From Lutimaribacter saemankumensis (lineage in GTDB: Bacteria; Pseudomonadota; Alphaproteobacteria; Rhodobacterales; Rhodobacteraceae), in the NCBI RefSeq assembly GCF_900100005.1, contig NZ_FNEB01000002.1, positions 124,001 to 188,000 of the forward strand: 64,000 nt of DNA. The letters run 5' to 3'. The notes beneath the pieces were generated by a model. That model was not told the origin of the DNA. It searched no databases and saw only the letters and a list, made by a program, of their open reading frames with translations. The translations under genes were made by a program, and so were the position numbers. This document shows positions 36,242 through 51,352 of the stretch, in pieces. Position 1 is the stretch's first letter; each line of letters begins with the position of its first letter.

Positions 36242-37021
36242 TCAGACGGCGCGTTCGACCATCATCTTCTTGATCTCTGCAATCGCCTTGGCCGGGTTCA
36301 GACCCTTGGGGCAAGTCTTGGTGCAGTTCATGATCGTGTGGCAGCGATAGAGCTTGAAGGGGTCTTCAAGCTGATCGAGCCGCTCGCCTGTCGCCTCGTC
36401 GCGGCTGTCGATGATCCAGCGGTAAGCGTGCAGCAGCGCGGCCGGGCCGAGGTAACGGTCGCCGTTCCACCAGTAGCTGGGGCACGAGGTCGAGCACGAA
36501 GCGCACATGACGCATTCATACAGACCGTCGAGTTTCTTGCGGTCTTCGATCGACTGCTTCCACTCTTTCGCGGGGCGGTTCGTCTTGGTTTCCAGCCAGG
36601 GCATGATGCTGGCGTGCTGGGCATAGAAATGCGTGAGGTCCGGGATCAGATCCTTGACCACAGGCATGTGCGGCAGCGGATAGATCTTCACGTCGCCCTT
36701 GATCTCGTCCAGACCGTAGATGCAGGCCAGCGTGTTGATCCCATCGATATTCATCGCACAGGAGCCACAGATGCCTTCGCGGCAGGACCGGCGGAAGGTC
36801 AGCGTCGGGTCGATCTCGTTCTTGATCTTGATCAGCGCATCCAGAACCATCGGGCCGCACTTGTCCATATCCAGGAAATAGGTGTCGACCCGCGGGTTTT
36901 CGCCATCATCTGGCGACCAGCGGTAAATGCTGAACTTGCGCACGTTCTTGGCGCCTTCGGGCTTGGGCCATGTCTTGCCCACGCGGATGCGCGAGTTCTT
37001 GGGGAGTGTGAGTTGAACCAT
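36242..37021 (-). CDS. sdhB: Succinate dehydrogenase iron-sulfur subunit
   Basis: A 259-residue protein with all cluster ligands. The [2Fe-2S] site is Cys80, 85, 88 and 100 ([13 protein letters not shown]). The C-terminal clusters use [11 protein letters not shown] (Cys170, 173, 176, 180) and [11 protein letters not shown] (Cys227, 233, 237). It passes electrons from SdhA to ubiquinone at the inner membrane. Two small genes separate it from sdhA, yet orientation and spacing suggest the same transcript. Confidence 0.97.
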
Positions 37022-37036: not shown

Positions 37037-37363
37037 TCAGCCAGCCAAAACAGTCAGGCTGTTTTCGGCAATACATTGGACGGATTGCGGGCGCTGGCCG
37101 ATTTCCAGCACCTCGTTGACCGTGGATTGGGTGACGCCGGTAACGGATGCACCGGCGATGCGCAGGATTTCATTGGCCGAGGCCGCGTCGATCACGCAGT
37201 CGGTGATTGGCGCCGCGTTCACGCCGGGAAAGCGATCGGTGACGATGCCGTTCACCACGCCTTTTGCCTGATCGCGGGCAATGGTGTCAGCGGCCTGATT
37301 GGCCATCTGGCACCCCGCGAGCGTTGCCGAAACACCGCATATGGCAAACACCTTCTGCATCAT
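37037..37363 (-). CDS. Small lipoprotein-like protein within the sdh operon (1)
   Basis: A 108-residue protein with an N-terminal hydrophobic stretch and lipobox-like TLAGC (Cys18), suggesting a lipoprotein. The mature part begins QMANQAADTIARDQAKGVVN and has two further Cys (TDCVID and VQCIAE) that could form a disulfide in the periplasm. I do not recognise a family. Its ATG overlaps the stop of the preceding lipoprotein gene (ATGA). It ends 15 bp before the sdhB start. Confidence 0.7.
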   Translation of the reverse strand: MMQKVFAICGVSATLAGCQMANQAADTIARDQAKGVVNGIVTDRFPGVNAAPITDCVIDAASANEILRIAGASVTGVTQSTVNEVLEIGQRPQSVQCIAENSLTVLAG

Positions 37364-37791
37364 TGATGCGTGCCCACGCAGTATTGCTTGCCGCCGACCA
37401 TGACCGAAGACCGAGGCGGGCAACCCGAAGTCGGTGCCGTCCCGTAATACATCTGGTTCAATTCGGCCTCGGCACGGGCGCGGGCGGTGTTGGGGTCGGG
37501 ATAGGCCACCGCACCCGATGCGATGCGTTCAGCGGCGCAGGCGTTGATCGCCCCGGCATCGGCTGCGCTGATCGCGCCGCCGGGCAACACGCGCACGGTA
37601 TACTTTCCGTTGCGCAGCGTGGTGTCCAGCCGCACCTGGCTGCCTTGAGGCAGGGTGCCTTTGATCGTGCCGATGCACGCAGATATGGCATCACGTTGCT
37701 CCACGAAGGATCGCGTATGTTCGCCACCAGTCAGTACACAACCCGACAGCACACCTGAGGCCAGTGCTGCGAATACAATAGAACGGCGCAT
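37360..37791 (-). CDS. Small lipoprotein within the sdh operon (2)
   Basis: A 143-residue protein with signal peptide and lipobox LSGC (Cys18). The mature part has further Cys residues (AISACIG, NACAAER, SGCPPRS and KQYCVG) and a beta-rich middle (TLRNGKYTVRVLPGG). No family is recognised. Its start codon overlaps the sdhA stop by one base (TGATG), so it is translationally coupled to sdhA. It probably sits on the periplasmic face of the inner membrane or in the outer membrane. Confidence 0.75.
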   Translation of the reverse strand: MRRSIVFAALASGVLSGCVLTGGEHTRSFVEQRDAISACIGTIKGTLPQGSQVRLDTTLRNGKYTVRVLPGGAISAADAGAINACAAERIASGAVAYPDPNTARARAEAELNQMYYGTAPTSGCPPRSSVMVGGKQYCVGTHQ

Positions 37792-39596
37792 CAGAACGTC
37801 CTCGCCTTGGGGGCGATTTTCTTCAGCTCGATCCCGCCTTCCTTTTCGGTGGTCAGCGGGTCGGTGATGACATCACGGTAGGTCAGCTTGACCTTGTTGC
37901 CCTCGACATGCGCGATGGAATGGACGCGCCATTTCTTGTCGTCGCGTTCGGGGTGATCCTCGTGCGCGTGGGCGCCGCGGGATTCCTTTCGCGCCTCGGC
38001 GCCGACGATTGTGGCCAGAGCGTTGGGCATCAGGTTGGTCAGTTCCAGCGTTTCCATTAGGTCGCTGTTCCAGATCAGGCTGCGGTCCGTGACCTTGAGA
38101 TCATCCAGCTTTGCCGCGATTTCCGTCATCCTGTCGACGCCCTGCTTGAGGGTATCCGAGGTGCGGAACACGGCGGCGTCTTCCTGCATGGTCCGCTGCA
38201 TTTCCAGGCGCAGTTCTGCGGTGGGGGTGCCACCATCGGCGTGGCGCAGGCCATCGAAGCGGTCGAACGCGGCGTCGATCGACGCCTGGTTCAGTACCGG
38301 GTTGGGCGCGTCGCGGTCGACGACCTTGCCAGCGCGGATCGCGGCGGCGCGGCCGAACACCACGAGGTCGATCAGGCTGTTCGAACCAAGGCGGTTCGCA
38401 CCGTGGACCGAGGCACAGCCCGCCTCGCCCACGGCCATCAGGCCGGGCACGATGGCGTTATGGTCGTCCTTGGTCGGGTTGATCACCTCGCCCCAGTAGT
38501 TCGTGGGGATGCCGCCCATGTTGTAGTGAACGGTCGGCAGAACCGGGATCGGTTCCTTCGTCACGTCGACACCGGCGAAAATCTTGGCGGATTCCGAAAT
38601 GCCCGGCAGACGCTCGGCCAGCGCCTCTTTCGGCAGGTGGCTGAGGTTCAGGTGTATATGGTCGCCGTTTTCACCCACGCCGCGGCCTTCGCGGATTTCC
38701 ATCGTCATGCAGCGGCTGACATAGTCGCGCGGTGCAAGATCCTTGTAGTGGGGGGCATAGCGTTCCATGAACCGCTCGCCTTCGGAGTTCGTCAGGTATC
38801 CGCCCTCGCCCCGCGCGCCTTCGGTGATCAGGCAGCCGGAACCGTAGATGCCGGTGGGGTGGAACTGAACGAATTCCATGTCCTGCAGGGCCAGGCCCGC
38901 GCGCGCCACCATGCCGCCACCGTCGCCGGTGCAGGTATGGGCGCTGGTCGCGCTGAAATAGGCGCGGCCGTAACCGCCGGTGGCCAGCACGACCATCTTG
39001 GCGTTGAACACATGGAAGGTGCCGTCATCGAGCTTCCAGCAGACGACGCCCTGGCACTGCCCGTCATCGGACATGATCAGGTCGATCGCGAAATACTCGA
39101 TATAGAACTCGGCGTTGTTCTTGAGGCTCTGGCCATACAGCGTGTGCAGGATGGCGTGACCGGTGCGGTCCGCGGCGGCGCAGGTACGCTGCACGGGCGG
39201 GCCTTCGCCGAACTCGGTCGTGTGGCCGCCGAACGGGCGCTGATAAATCTTGCCTTCTTCGGTGCGGCTGAAGGGAACGCCGTAGTGTTCAAGCTCGTAA
39301 ACCGCCTTGGGCGCCTCGCGGGCGAGGTACTCCATCGCGTCGGTATCGCCCAGCCAGTCCGAGCCCTTGACGGTGTCGTACATGTGCCACTGCCAATGGT
39401 CGGGGCCCATGTTCGACAGCGACGCCGCGATGCCGCCCTGCGCGGCAACGGTGTGCGAACGGGTCGGGAAAACCTTGGTCACGCAAGCGGTGCGCAGCCC
39501 CTGTTCGGCCATGCCCAGCGTCGCGCGCAGACCGGCACCGCCGGCACCGACGACCACGACGTCATATTCATGCGTCTCGTATTCGTAAGAAGCCAT
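37791..39596 (-). CDS. sdhA: Succinate dehydrogenase flavoprotein subunit
   Basis: A 601-residue flavoprotein. [20 protein letters not shown] (residues 13-32) binds FAD, and [10 protein letters not shown] (His48) is the covalent flavinylation site. [20 protein letters not shown] is the conserved active-site region. It oxidises succinate to fumarate, in complex with SdhB, C and D. It follows sdhD by 19 bp and is coupled to a lipoprotein gene at its 3' end. Confidence 0.97.
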
Positions 39597-39615: not shown

Positions 39616-39987
39616 TTAAAGCGCGATTTTGGCAATGGCGAAAAGGCCCGTCGCCATCGCGGCATAGGACAGGCAGGTCACCAGGATCAGGGCCAGTTTC
39701 TGGCTGGCGCCATGAACGTAGTCTTCGATCAGAACCTGCGCGCCGTCGTTGAAGTGCTTCCACCCGACGATAAAGGTCAGCGCGGCAACCAGCGCCGGGA
39801 AGGGCCGGGCGAAATAGGCGGTGACCTCTTCATAGGTGCCGCCCAGCGCGGGGCCGAATGTAAAGACGAACAGCGGCACCAGGATCAGGAGCGCCACGGA
39901 CGACACCTTCATCGCCCAGAAATGGTGAACGCCGGACTTGGCCGAGCCAAGCCCAATGGCGCGTTTGCGGTCGGTCAGGTAACGCAT
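39616..39987 (-). CDS. sdhD: Succinate dehydrogenase membrane anchor subunit SdhD
   Basis: A 123-residue protein with three membrane segments, starting YLTDRKRAIGLGSAKSGVHH. The HHFWAMKVSSVALLILVPLF segment is typical of alphaproteobacterial SdhD. Together with SdhC it anchors the enzyme and forms the quinone and heme sites. It starts 10 bp after the sdhC stop. Confidence 0.92.
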   Translation of the reverse strand: MRYLTDRKRAIGLGSAKSGVHHFWAMKVSSVALLILVPLFVFTFGPALGGTYEEVTAYFARPFPALVAALTFIVGWKHFNDGAQVLIEDYVHGASQKLALILVTCLSYAAMATGLFAIAKIAL

Positions 39988-39997
39988 CTTGGCCTCC

Positions 39998-40381
39998 TTA
40001 CACGATCAGCAGCGTCAGCACGGTCAGCACGACCGACCCGATGATGCAGCCCCAGCCCAGCTTTTCGGCCAGTTCCAGCTCGAGCATCATCGCGTTGTCC
40101 CAGATCAGGTGCCGGATGCCGGCCAGCGTGTGATACCAAAGGCCCAGCACCGAAAGCGCCAGGACCAGATCGCCGAACCAGCTTGTGACAAAGCCGTTTG
40201 CGATGGCGAAATATTCCGGCCCGCTGGAGGCGGCCAGGAACCACCATACGATCATGAGCCCGCCCACGACGAGCGCATTGCCCGTGATCCGCGTCAGGAT
40301 CGAACTGATCGAGGTGATCTGGGGGCGGTAAATGGAAAGGTGAGGTGAAAGCGGGCGATTGCCCCTGTTTACATCAGCCAT
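39998..40381 (-). CDS. sdhC: Succinate dehydrogenase cytochrome b556 subunit SdhC
   Basis: A 127-residue protein with three membrane helices. RPLSPHLSIYRPQITSISSI is the SdhC family N-terminal signature, and YHTLAGIRHLIWD holds the heme-ligand His region. It is the first gene of sdhC-sdhD-sdhA-two lipoprotein genes-sdhB. The paired TGTGATCACA operator lies 134-164 bp upstream of its start. Confidence 0.95.
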   Translation of the reverse strand: MADVNRGNRPLSPHLSIYRPQITSISSILTRITGNALVVGGLMIVWWFLAASSGPEYFAIANGFVTSWFGDLVLALSVLGLWYHTLAGIRHLIWDNAMMLELELAEKLGWGCIIGSVVLTVLTLLIV

Positions 40382-40514
40382 TGGTCATCCCTTGGTGCAT
40401 GCACGGGTATACCCGGTGTCGCGCTGTGTTGTGCAACGTTTTAGCGTTCATGTCACGCGCGCACAGGCCTGATAACGCGATAAATCCGGGCATTTTGCCG
40501 CAAAGGTCGAATTT

Positions 40515-40545
40515 TGTGATCACATGATCATCCGCTGTGATCACA
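40515..40545. promoter_or_regulatory. Paired palindromic operator upstream of sdhC
   Basis: TGTGATCACA occurs at 40515-40524 and 40536-40545, start-to-start distance 21 bp, about two helical turns. Each copy is a perfect 10-bp palindrome. A further TGATCA lies between them (40525-40530). The same pair with the same spacing is found upstream of sucC (46020-46050), so a shared regulator of TCA-cycle genes is likely. The rest of the 178-bp gap (40382-40559) includes GGCATTTTGCC (40489-40499) and presumably the promoter. Confidence 0.75.
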
Positions 40546-40559
40546 AGCCGGCCCAAAAC

Positions 40560-40766
40560 TCAGGTCTGAACGAATCCCAGCATCTCCAGCGCCCTGCGCG
40601 CGGCATCTTTCTGTGCGGTTTCGCCGCTCAGAAGGTGGGTGTTCAGGTCATGCACAAGGGGGCTGAGCCGCCTGCTCCGGCGCAGATCGGCGACCATCGG
40701 CGCCAATGCGTCTTTCGGTGCATTCAAAATGTCGTCCAGCGACGGAATCGGAACCGACTGGTCCAT
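40560..40766 (-). CDS. Small hypothetical protein, 68 residues
   Basis: A short soluble protein beginning MDQSVPIPSLDDILNAPKDA, mostly helical, with no Cys and no membrane helix. The frame is supported by codon use and by an upstream GGAGGCTGCACC ribosome-binding region. I do not recognise a family. It lies 110 bp downstream of mch, on the same strand, and ends 14 bp from the sdh operator. Confidence 0.55.
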   Translation of the reverse strand: MDQSVPIPSLDDILNAPKDALAPMVADLRRSRRLSPLVHDLNTHLLSGETAQKDAARRALEMLGFVQT

Positions 40767-46019: not shown

Positions 46020-46050
46020 TGTGATCACACGATTTCTGGCTGTGATCACA
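46020..46050. promoter_or_regulatory. Paired palindromic operator upstream of sucC
   Basis: TGTGATCACA occurs at 46020-46029 and 46041-46050, start-to-start 21 bp, the same arrangement as upstream of sdhC. The outer flanks CGCTTT and AAAGCG extend the dyad symmetry of the whole site. Next to it, GCGGA-aaa-TCCGC (46055-46067) is a second inverted repeat. The operator lies 110-140 bp before sucC. The same 276-bp gap also holds the mdh terminator and direct repeats GCATAC (45967 and 45977), 10 bp apart. Confidence 0.75.
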
Positions 46051-46159
46051 AAAAGCGGAAAATCCGCCGGTTTTCCCGTCCGGCGATAGAAATCAGTTAA
46101 ACATGGCGCATACTTGTGCCACTACGACTGCCAATCGCAAGCCAAGACGGGACAGTTTC

Positions 46160-47353
46160 ATGAATATCCATGAATATCAGGCGAAGGCGCTTCTTCGCTC
46201 TTATGGCGCCCCGGTTTCCGACGGTCGCGCCGTCATGAAAGCCGAAGACGCCAAAACCGCAGCCGGTGAACTTGACGGGCCCCTTTGGGTGGTCAAGGCG
46301 CAAATCCACGCCGGCGGCCGCGGCAAGGGCCACTTCAAAGAGGCGGAAGCCGGTGAAAAGGGCGGTGTGCGTCTGGCCAAGTCGGTCGAGGAAGCCGCCG
46401 AAGAAGCGAAAAAGATGCTGGGCAAGACCCTGGTCACGCACCAGACCGGCCCGGCCGGCAAGCAGGTCAACCGCATCTACATCGAAGACGGCTCGGACAT
46501 CGAGCGCGAGCTGTATCTGGCGCTGCTGGTCGACCGCCAATCGAGCCGCATTTCGTTTGTCTGCTCGACCGAAGGCGGCATGGACATCGAAGAAGTCGCC
46601 GCCGAAACACCCGAGAAGATCCTGTCGTTCAGCGTCGATCCGGCCACCGGCTACCAGCCGTTCCACGGCCGCCGCATCGCCTTTGCGCTGGGCCTCGAAG
46701 GCGCACAGGTCAAGCAGTGCGTCAAGCTGATGGGCATTCTCTATACCGCCTTCGTCGAGAAGGACATGGAGATGCTGGAAATCAACCCGCTGATCGTCAT
46801 GACGAACGGCGAGCTCAAGGTGCTGGACGCCAAGCTGGGCTTTGACGGCAACGCGCTTTACCGCCAGCCCGACGTGGCCAACCTGCGCGACGAAACCGAA
46901 GAAGACCCCAAGGAGCTTCAGGCCAGCAAGTACGACCTGAACTACATCGCGCTCGACGGTGAAATCGGCTGCATGGTGAACGGCGCGGGTCTTGCCATGG
47001 CGACGATGGACATCATCAAGCTTTACGGCGCCGAGCCGGCGAACTTCCTCGACGTGGGTGGCGGCGCCACCAAGGAAAAGGTGACCGAGGCGTTCAAGAT
47101 CATCACCTCTGACCCGAACGTCAAAGGCATCCTGGTGAACATCTTCGGCGGCATCATGCGCTGCGACGTGATCGCCGAGGGCGTCGTGGCTGCCGTGAAA
47201 GAAGTTGGCCTGAAGGTGCCGCTGGTCGTCCGCCTGGAAGGCACGAATGTCGAAAAGGGCAAGGACATCATCAACAATTCCGGCCTCGACGTGATCGCGG
47301 CGGACGATCTGAAGGACGGTGCGCAAAAGATCGTCAAAGCGGTGAAGGGATAA
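46160..47353 (+). CDS. sucC: Succinate-CoA ligase, beta subunit
   Basis: A 397-residue ATP-grasp protein starting [40 protein letters not shown] is the nucleotide-binding region and [10 protein letters not shown] near the C terminus is conserved. With SucD it makes ATP or GTP from succinyl-CoA. ATG 46160 matches the universal N terminus. It is the first gene of sucC-sucD, and sucA begins 140 bp after sucD, so suc genes may form one transcript under the paired operator. Confidence 0.96.
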
Positions 47354-47357
47354 GAAA

Positions 47358-48245
47358 ATGGCAGTCCTCGTTGACGAAAACACAAAAGTCATCTGTCAGG
47401 GCTTCACCGGAAGCCAGGGCACATTCCACTCCGAACAGGCCATCGCCTATGGCACCAAGATGGTCGGCGGCGTGACGCCGGGCAAAGGCGGCCAGACCCA
47501 TCTGGACCTGCCTGTCTTCAACTCGGTGCACGAGGCCAAGCACGTGACCGAGGCGAACGCCACGGTGATCTACGTGCCCCCGCCCTTCGCCGCGGATTCC
47601 ATCCTCGAGGCGATCGACGCCGAGATGGAGCTGATCGTCTGCATCACCGAAGGCATCCCCGTGCTCGACATGATGAAGGTCAAGCGCGCGCTGGAAGGGT
47701 CGAAATCCACGCTGATCGGCCCGAACTGCCCCGGTGTCATCACGCCCGACGCCTGCAAGATCGGCATCATGCCCGGCCACATCCACAAGCGCGGCAAGGT
47801 CGGCGTCGTGTCCCGTTCGGGCACGCTGACATACGAGGCGGTCAAGCAGACCACCGATGTGGGCCTGGGCCAGTCGACCTGCGTCGGCATCGGCGGCGAC
47901 CCGATCAAGGGAACCGAGCATATCGACGTGCTGGAGTGGTTCCTGGCCGACGACGAAACCGAAAGCATCATCATGATCGGTGAAATCGGCGGCAGCGCCG
48001 AGGAAGAGGCTGCAGCCTTCCTCGCATCCGAAAAGAAAAAGGGCCGCTGGAAACCCACCGCGGGCTTCATCGCCGGGCGCACCGCACCTCCGGGCCGCCG
48101 CATGGGCCACGCGGGCGCGATCGTCGCCGGCGGCAAGGGCGGCGCCGAGGACAAGATCGAGGCGATGAAATCCGCCGGTATCGTCGTCGCCGACAGCCCC
48201 GCCACGCTGGGCGAGGCTGTGCTGGACGCGATCAAGAAAGGCTGA
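47358..48245 (+). CDS. sucD: Succinate-CoA ligase, alpha subunit
   Basis: A 295-residue protein with a CoA-binding Rossmann start ([20 protein letters not shown]) and phosphohistidine segment [17 protein letters not shown] near residues 250-266. Phosphohistidine carries phosphate between succinyl phosphate and nucleotide. It starts 4 bp after sucC. Confidence 0.96.
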
Positions 48246-48385: not shown

Positions 48386-51352
48386 ATGACGGATCAAAGC
48401 CCGAACGACGCCTTCCATGCCTCAAGCTTCATGCAGGGGCACAACGCGGAATACCTCGAACAGATGTATGCCCGCTATGCCAACGACCCGGCCTCGGTCG
48501 ACGAAAGCTGGGCCGATTTCTTCCGCCAGCTTGGCGACACCGACATGGACGTCAAGAAAGAGGCCGCAGGCCCCAGCTGGGCTCGCGCCGACTGGCCGCC
48601 CAGCCCCGCCGACGACCTGACCGGCGCACTGACGGGCGAATGGCCCGCAGCGGCGGCCGAAATGAAAGGCGCCGGCGACAAGATCAAGGCGAAGGCGCAG
48701 GAAAAGGGCGTCGAAATCACCGATGACGCGGTCAAGCGTGCGGTGCTCGACTCGGTCCGCGCACTGATGCTGATCCGCGCCTACCGGATCCGTGGACACC
48801 TTGCGGCCGATCTCGATCCGTTGGGGATGCACAACGCGACCAACCACCCCGAGCTCGATCCGAAATCCTACGGCTTCACCGATGCCGACATGGATCGCCC
48901 GATCTTCCTCGACAACGTGCTGGGCCTGCAGATCGCGCCGATGCGGCAGATCGTGGACATCGTAAAGCGCACCTATTGCGGCACTTTCGCGCTGCAATAC
49001 ATGCATATCTCGGACCCGGAACAGGCCGGCTGGCTCAAGGAACGGATCGAAGGGTTCGGCAAGGAAATCCAGTTTACCCGCGAAGGCCGCAAGGCCATCC
49101 TGAACAAGCTGGTCGAGGCCGAAGGCTTCGAAAAGTTCCTGCATGTCAAATACATGGGCACCAAGCGTTTCGGTCTTGACGGCGGCGAGGCGCTGATCCC
49201 CGCGATGGAACAGATCATCAAGCGCGGCGGGAACCTGGGCGTCAAGGAAATCGTCATCGGGATGCCGCACCGTGGCCGCCTGAACATCCTTGCCAACGTG
49301 ATGGGCAAACCCTATCGCGCGATCTTCAACGAATTCCAGGGCGGCAGCTTCAAGCCCGAGGACGTGGACGGATCGGGCGACGTGAAATATCACCTCGGCG
49401 CCTCCAGCGACCGTGAATTCGACGGCAACAACGTGCACCTGTCGCTGACCGCGAACCCCAGCCACCTCGAGGCGGTGAACCCCGTGGTTCTGGGCAAGGC
49501 GCGCGCCAAGCAGGACCAGCTGAACGATCCCAAGCGCATGGCAGTGCTGCCGGTGCTTCTGCATGGCGACGCGGCTTTTGCCGGTCAGGGCGTCGTGGCC
49601 GAATGCTTTGGCCTTTCGGGCCTGCGCGGGCACCGCACCGGCGGGACGATCCACATCGTCGTGAACAACCAGATCGGCTTTACCACCGCGCCGCATTTCA
49701 GCCGCTCGTCGCCTTACCCGACGGATATCGCGCTGATGGTCGAGGCGCCGATCTTCCACGTCAACGGCGACGACCCCGAGGCCGTGGTCCACGCCGCCAA
49801 GGTGGCGACCGAATTCCGCCAGAAATTCCACAAGGACGTGGTCATCGACATGTTCTGCTACCGTCGCTTCGGTCATAACGAAGGCGACGAGCCGATGTTC
49901 ACCAACCCGTTGATGTACAAGAACATCAAGGGTCACAAGACCACGCTTGCCCTTTATACCGACCGCCTCGTCAAGGACGGGCTGATCCCCGAGGGCGAGA
50001 TCGAGGACATGAAGGCCGCTTTCCAGGCGCACCTGAACGAAGAGTTCGAATCCGGCAAGGATTACAAGCCTAACAAGGCCGACTGGCTGGATGGCCGCTG
50101 GAGCCACCTGGACCGTCAGAAACAGGGCAAGTACCAGCGCGGCAAGACCGCGATCAAACCGGAAACCATGGCGGAAATCGGCCGCGCGCTGACGATCCCG
50201 CCCGAAGGGTTCGCCGTGCACAAGACGGTGCAGCGCCTGCTGGAAACCCGCAAGCAGATGTTCGACACCGGCGAAGGGTTCGATTGGGCCACGGGCGAGG
50301 CGCTCGCCTTTGGCAGCCTTCTGACCGAAGGCTACCCCGTGCGCCTGGCCGGTCAGGACAGTACGCGAGGCACCTTCAGCCAGCGGCACTCCGGCCTGAT
50401 CAACCAGGACACCGAGGAACGGTATTACCCGCTCAACCACATCCGCGAGGGCCAGGCGCATTACGAGGTCATCGACTCGATGCTGTCGGAATACGCGGTT
50501 CTCGGGTTCGAATACGGCTATTCGCTGGCCGAACCCAACGCCTTGACCCTGTGGGAAGCGCAGTTCGGCGATTTCGCCAACGGTGCGCAGATCATGTTCG
50601 ACCAGTTCGTCAGCTCGGGCGAAAGCAAGTGGCTGCGCATGTCGGGCCTCGTCTGCCTGCTGCCGCACGGTTACGAAGGCCAGGGGCCGGAACACAGCTC
50701 GGCCCGGTTGGAACGTTTCCTGCAGATGTGCGGACAGGACAACTGGATCGTGGCGAACTGCACGACGCCCGCGAACTATTTCCACATCCTGCGGCGGCAG
50801 CTTCACCGCAGCTTCCGCAAGCCGCTGATCCTGATGACGCCGAAATCGCTGCTGCGTCACAAGCTGGCGGTATCGCGGGCCGAGGAATTCACCACCGGGT
50901 CGTCCTTCCACCGTGTTCTGTGGGACGATGCGCAATACGGCAATTCCGACACCAAGCTGGTCGCCGATGAAAAGATCAAGCGCGTGGTCATGTGCTCGGG
51001 CAAGGTCTATTTCGACCTGCTGGAAGAGCGTGACGCCCGCGGCATCGACGATGTCTATATCCTGCGGATCGAACAGTTCTATCCCTTCCCCGCGCAATCG
51101 CTGGTCAAGGAACTGGAACGCTTCAAGGAGGCCGAGATGGTCTGGTGCCAGGAAGAGCCCAAGAACCAGGGCGCCTGGACCTTCATCGAACCGAACATCG
51201 AATGGGTGCTGGGCCGCATCAAGGCCAAGCATGGGCGTCCGGTCTATGCCGGCCGTGCCGCCAGCGCCTCGCCCGCGACGGGTCTGGCCCGCGCGCACAA
51301 GGAACAACAACAGGCGCTCGTGGACGAGGCGCTGACCATCAAAGGGAAATGA
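48386..51352 (+). CDS. sucA: 2-oxoglutarate dehydrogenase E1 component
   Basis: A 988-residue thiamine-diphosphate enzyme. The N terminus ([20 protein letters not shown]) is the E1o-specific helical segment, [17 protein letters not shown] and VNNQIGFTT are conserved, and [20 protein letters not shown] lies in the C-terminal transketolase-like domain. It decarboxylates 2-oxoglutarate and passes the succinyl group to the SucB lipoyl domains. ATG 48386 follows AAAGGA. Its stop is within a few bases of the sucB start. Confidence 0.96.

Follow-up and report, generated by a model that had tools for sequence, protein, structure and literature searches.

The window analysed here is a stretch of 64,000 nucleotides of Lutimaribacter saemankumensis (contig NZ_FNEB01000002.1, positions 124,001 to 188,000), in which a 10-bp palindrome, TGTGATCACA, is duplicated upstream of sdhC and duplicated again, with the same spacing, upstream of sucC. 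The question raised by this locus is which protein reads the doubled palindrome, and why the two copies stand at one fixed distance. As judged by sequence comparison, the composite sites are almost certainly docking sites for AkgR, a regulator with GntR and FCD domains, with a spacing that is kept across most of the Rhodobacteraceae. They are very probably operator pairs through which AkgR would activate sdhCDAB and sucCD-sucA, genes of the tricarboxylic acid (TCA) cycle, and akgR is probably repressed by its own product.

The duplicated palindrome and its conservation

Both composites were found in the window sequence, base for base, as TGTGATCACA-N11-TGTGATCACA. The first-pass annotation had described such a site before sdhC, with a copy before sucC 5.5 kb away, and the two are indeed located at 40515-40545 and 46020-46050, 5,505 bp apart, each with a distance of 21 bp from the start of one palindrome to the start of the next. 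The first composite is flanked by a 68-codon open reading frame (ORF) and by sdhC (minus strand, start 40381), and consists of a promoter-distal palindrome (40536-40545), an 11-bp spacer (40525-40535) and a promoter-proximal palindrome (40515-40524). The second lies in the intergenic region that separates mdh from sucC (plus strand, start 46160), with the distal palindrome at 46020-46029 and the proximal palindrome at 46041-46050.

The absence of further copies from the window extends to the whole genome, as a pattern search of the assembly (3.77 Mb, 49 contigs) returned no composite beyond these two, even with up to 3 mismatches, and a reversed composite used as a control gave 0 matches. At that tolerance the 31-mer is found 2 times in the window, against 0.00 expected from shuffled sequence. 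The first-pass annotation had counted a 10-mer common at random, or a composite missing from orthologous promoters, as evidence against an operator. Rather, the window holds 4 exact copies of the 10-mer where dinucleotide shuffles predict 0.05, and the composite is kept at the sdhC and sucC promoters of the family. Genome-wide there are six copies of TGTGATCACA: the four in the pairs, one before a gene for a GntR regulator, and one alone between unrelated genes (G000:C38:256035). The last is judged to be a chance occurrence, because the shuffle rate of the window scales to about 3 per genome.

The search of related Rhodobacteraceae that had been proposed for sdh and suc promoters yielded 112 identified sdhC or sucC promoters with the pair. 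Among 61 relatives, the composite occurs in 30 of 37 genomes of the family, typically twice, and in 0 of 24 genomes of other families, apart from one match with 3 mismatches. The composite loci returned lie upstream of sucC or sdhC; of the second sites that were fetched, 19 of 20 lie upstream of sdhC and the other at a contig end. In a larger family sample of 149 genomes, one per genus, two GTGATCAC boxes occur within 38 bp in 133 genomes. Sampling of 240 genomes across the class turned up only 3 occurrences of the pair outside the family: two in one genus, of which one precedes a GntR/FCD gene, and a third within a coding region. A chance or mobile repeat, in favour of which no point was found, is ruled out as a vanishingly improbable origin by conservation at orthologous promoters: the sdhC and sucC promoters carry the pair family-wide while flanks and spacers have diverged, and the expected count of the composite is 0.00.

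Assignment of the sites to AkgR

The AkgR regulon of Rhodobacter (Cereibacter) sphaeroides, with RSP_0981 as the regulator, was reportedly described by Imam et al. in 2015. The AkgR sites of that species contain GTGATCAC, according to PMC6365646, and the predicted targets of the GntR regulator RSP_0981 are sucCD (RSP_0967-6), sdh (RSP_0974-6) and 2-oxoglutarate dehydrogenase (RSP_0965-62) (PMC4344238). The window matches this description, with four exact copies of the palindrome in two pairs, placed upstream of sdh and of sucCD, and with sucA after sucCD on the same strand. A candidate akgR is present outside the window (G000:C25:196797-197441, minus strand). Its product has GntR and FCD domains by Pfam, and is judged to be the RSP_0981 ortholog by its 76% identity to the GntR/FCD protein encoded beside sdh in G078, an R. 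sphaeroides-like genome.

In G078 the order sucA-sucD-sucC-pair-mdh...mch-pair-sdhCDAB-GntR/FCD follows the RSP numbers. The same 21-bp pairs precede sdhC and sucC as in L. saemankumensis, and the regulator gene lies just past sdhB, 4-5 kb from the sdh site, whereas akgR of L. saemankumensis is far from sdh and suc, on another contig. The reaction-centre L chain of G078 is 100% identical to what we take to be the R. sphaeroides chain. On this one protein and gene order, G078 would be R. sphaeroides or a sister species; no locus named as R. sphaeroides was among the best 80 for its AkgR-like protein, where the closest named match is Cereibacter ovatus.

The presence of the gene and the presence of the site also go together. 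Among the 149 family genomes, 130 have both akgR and the paired site, 13 have neither, 3 have the site only and 3 the gene only, such that regulator and site are concordant in 143 (Fisher P = 2e-13, with kinship ignored). A SucC tree needs 4 changes of the "neither" label, of which well-supported branches make at least two unavoidable; joint absence therefore has more than one origin. A genome without akgR, G136, has a lone TGATCA 114 bp before sucC (L206), close to where the proximal palindrome would stand, and this is possibly a decaying operator.

The first-pass annotation had left the choice between CceR and AkgR undecided. AkgR can be assigned, because its motif and targets, the surroundings of its gene in G078, a copy of the palindrome at akgR itself and the co-occurrence across genera all agree. 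A pair of operators dedicated to a regulator of the TCA cycle, as had been suggested, is well supported. CceR did not hold up. Ownership of the site by CceR, of the LacI family, or by a regulator of the CRP/FNR type is very improbable, even though TGTGA...TCACA resembles the half-sites of CRP. In CRP sites TGTGA and TCACA are separated by 6 bp, and here the half-sites abut with 0 bp between them, so a TGTGA-N6-TCACA operator was rejected; nor is R. sphaeroides predicted to have a CRP analogue (PMC4344238). CceR, like AkgR, is predicted to regulate sdh in R. sphaeroides, as well as mdh and other central carbon genes, but its motif is GTT-N6-8-AAC (PMC4344238). In the comparison with published motifs that had been recommended, the GTGATCAC of AkgR matches and the CceR pattern is missing from the upstream regions of sdhC, sucC and mdh, and CceR was set aside.

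Another GntR/FCD protein of the same genome, 36% identical to AkgR (G000:C25:45422-46024), is an improbable binder of the sites, if slightly less so than CceR. A GTGATCAC palindrome has been proposed for PS417_07240, the regulator of a deoxyribonate cluster in Pseudomonas simiae, which is 32% identical to AkgR (PMC6365646), and in another alphaproteobacterial family a GntR/FCD gene has a 21-bp pair before it (L227). However, the autoregulatory copy in L. saemankumensis sits at the AkgR ortholog, and it is the AkgR ortholog that tracks the sites across genera and adjoins sdh in the R. sphaeroides-like genome. The Pseudomonas case also differs from AkgR in that one palindrome is described, near the start codon of the catabolic gene cluster (PMC6365646). 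The L227 pair, at 992-1020, lies between the regulator gene and a divergent gene for a TonB-dependent receptor, and implies that AkgR is not the only user of this DNA code.

Spacing, promoter phase and probable autoregulation

By analogy with the GntR family, each 10-bp palindrome would be bound by one AkgR dimer. Because 21 bp amounts to two DNA turns, two dimers would sit on one side of the helix, where they could touch and bind cooperatively. The dimer-of-dimers binding that had been suggested from the spacing is consistent with the distance of 21 (sometimes 20) bp. Among 75 pairs listed without a spacing constraint, 64 are spaced by 21 bp and 4 by 20 bp; the spacer sequence is free to vary and A+T-rich in its middle.

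A less favoured reading, though one with a real minority share, is that AkgR binds as independent dimers, with the second palindrome as a back-up or higher-dose site and the 21-bp spacing as inherited sequence that involves no contact. Some promoters have one palindrome (akgR, sucC of G067, sdhC of L258), so binding may not require a second one. Independent dimers are harder to reconcile with a spacer that varies freely in sequence while its length stays such that the starts are 21 (sometimes 20) bp apart across about 130 genera, with a third palindrome at another 21 bp in some genomes, or with operator-to-promoter distances that shift by about whole turns. The triple arrangement was seen upstream of sucC in L137 and L145, where three palindromes follow one another at 21-bp intervals. 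Two other loci (L315 and L322, both at 901/932) have TGTGATCACA pairs at a spacing of 31 bp, or about three helical turns; the pair in L315 is upstream of a gene for a TauE-like permease.

The proximal palindrome of sdhC is followed, in 38 of 52 promoters, by a GTGACA-type -35 box at a distance of 57-60 bp, and in 8 of the other 14 this box lies at 36, 47, 48, 48, 48, 68, 70 and 80 bp, about one or two helical turns away; 0 of 20,000 random draws were equally well phased. At sucC, the best sigma70-like -35 lies at 47-48 bp in 24 of 60 promoters, one helical turn less than at sdhC, with the rest scattered and the box less clear than that of sdhC. In L. saemankumensis, comparison with relatives predicts a GTGACA box at 40451-40456 (minus strand), 59 bp after the proximal palindrome of sdhC, with a weak -10 box and a predicted start site, and a putative -35-like TTAAAC box at 46097-46102 (plus strand), 47 bp after that of sucC. 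On the simplest reading, AkgR dimers aligned on one face would contact RNA polymerase, and since the pair lies upstream of and in phase with weak core promoters, bound AkgR most likely helps the polymerase to start. AkgR would thus activate sdhCDAB and sucCD-sucA together, as is reported for R. sphaeroides.

The akgR promoter is built differently. The fifth genomic copy of TGTGATCACA stands 9 bp before the ATG of the candidate akgR, and 44 of 56 ortholog loci have GTGATCAC at this position. A distance of exactly 18 bp separates a TTGAC -35 sequence from the start of the box in 39 of the 44, which places the box over the promoter spacer and the beginning of the -10 region; the TTGAC is most often 35 bp before the ATG, which suggests that akgR mRNA is leaderless. 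AkgR therefore probably represses its own gene, as a single palindrome overlaps the core promoter between -35 and -10. A wider proposal, to which we give about an even chance, is a two-mode switch used throughout the family, in which phased pairs activate sdh and suc and a single operator autorepresses akgR, with fumC, sucA or a third operator added in some lineages and with loss of the sites alongside akgR more than once.

Several points weigh against the reading of the pairs as AkgR operators for activation. Binding and activation by AkgR in L. saemankumensis are deduced from sequence, and the transcription starts at the sdhC, sucC and akgR promoters are predictions. The identity of RSP_0981 depends on gene order and on the one reaction-centre sequence presumed to be that of R. 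sphaeroides. The AkgR motif and targets come from two papers that cite or predate the primary AkgR report. Counts of co-occurrence and phasing are from related genomes, which are not phylogenetically independent, and the spacing found at the 112 promoters (21 bp in 103, 20 bp in 9) comes from a sample gathered in part with a fixed 21-bp pattern. Gene and site are discordant in 6 of 149 genomes, several of them incomplete assemblies. Of those with the gene only, G149 and G174 are assemblies of 73-76% completeness that have no intact sucC, and in G067 one palindrome is still present at sucC. The autoregulatory site is missing from akgR of G078, in contrast to L. saemankumensis, and from most of the Rhodobacter, Gemmobacter and Tabrizicola relatives.

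A literature search for TGTGATCACA, GTGATCAC and related terms gave PMC6365646 as the sole relevant match. The regulator, motif and targets are already known from R. sphaeroides. The pairing at fixed spacing, the helical phase with -35, the autoregulatory geometry and the joint loss were not found described in the literature compared, which consists of papers other than the primary AkgR report. A motif that had not been tied to a regulator is now linked to a named one, AkgR, and a two-promoter circuit for control of the TCA cycle is conserved in about 130 genera of the Rhodobacteraceae, an abundant family. Fixed spacing and phasing provide a simple model for how a GntR/FCD protein could activate rather than repress, and the paired pattern is a precise means to find AkgR targets in uncharacterised genomes.

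Further pairs and neighbouring genes

Two further pairs, both at 901/922 of their loci, fit a TCA-cycle regulon. In G069 (L281, contig C16), an additional 21-bp pair lies upstream of fumC, read from its translation as a class II fumarase gene, and may extend the AkgR regulon in that lineage. In G163 (L314, contig C1), where sucC is diverged and placed elsewhere, the pair is located between mdh and the next gene, directly upstream of sucA.

In the window, the sdh genes are on the minus strand: sdhC (39998-40381, PF01127), sdhD (39616-39987, PF01127), sdhA (37791-39596, assigned by homology to relatives) and sdhB (36242-37021, PF13085). On the plus strand, sucC occupies 46160-47353, with its true start at 46160 (MNIHEYQ) and not at the ORF start of 46103, followed by sucD (47358-48245) and, 3' of sucCD, by sucA for 2-oxoglutarate dehydrogenase E1 (48386-51352), which is probably on the same transcript as sucCD. 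Pfam supports the assignments of sdhC, sdhD, sdhB, sucC, sucD and sucA.

Two overlapping small minus-strand ORFs with a lipoprotein-like look (37037-37423 and 37360-37791) lie between sdhA and sdhB, and the first has a weak relative at the same place in G078. The 68-codon ORF (40560-40766, minus strand), which separates the mesaconyl-CoA hydratase gene from the sdhC operator, has no Pfam match and no relative in the R. sphaeroides-like genome; it has a relative in one congeneric genome (L260).
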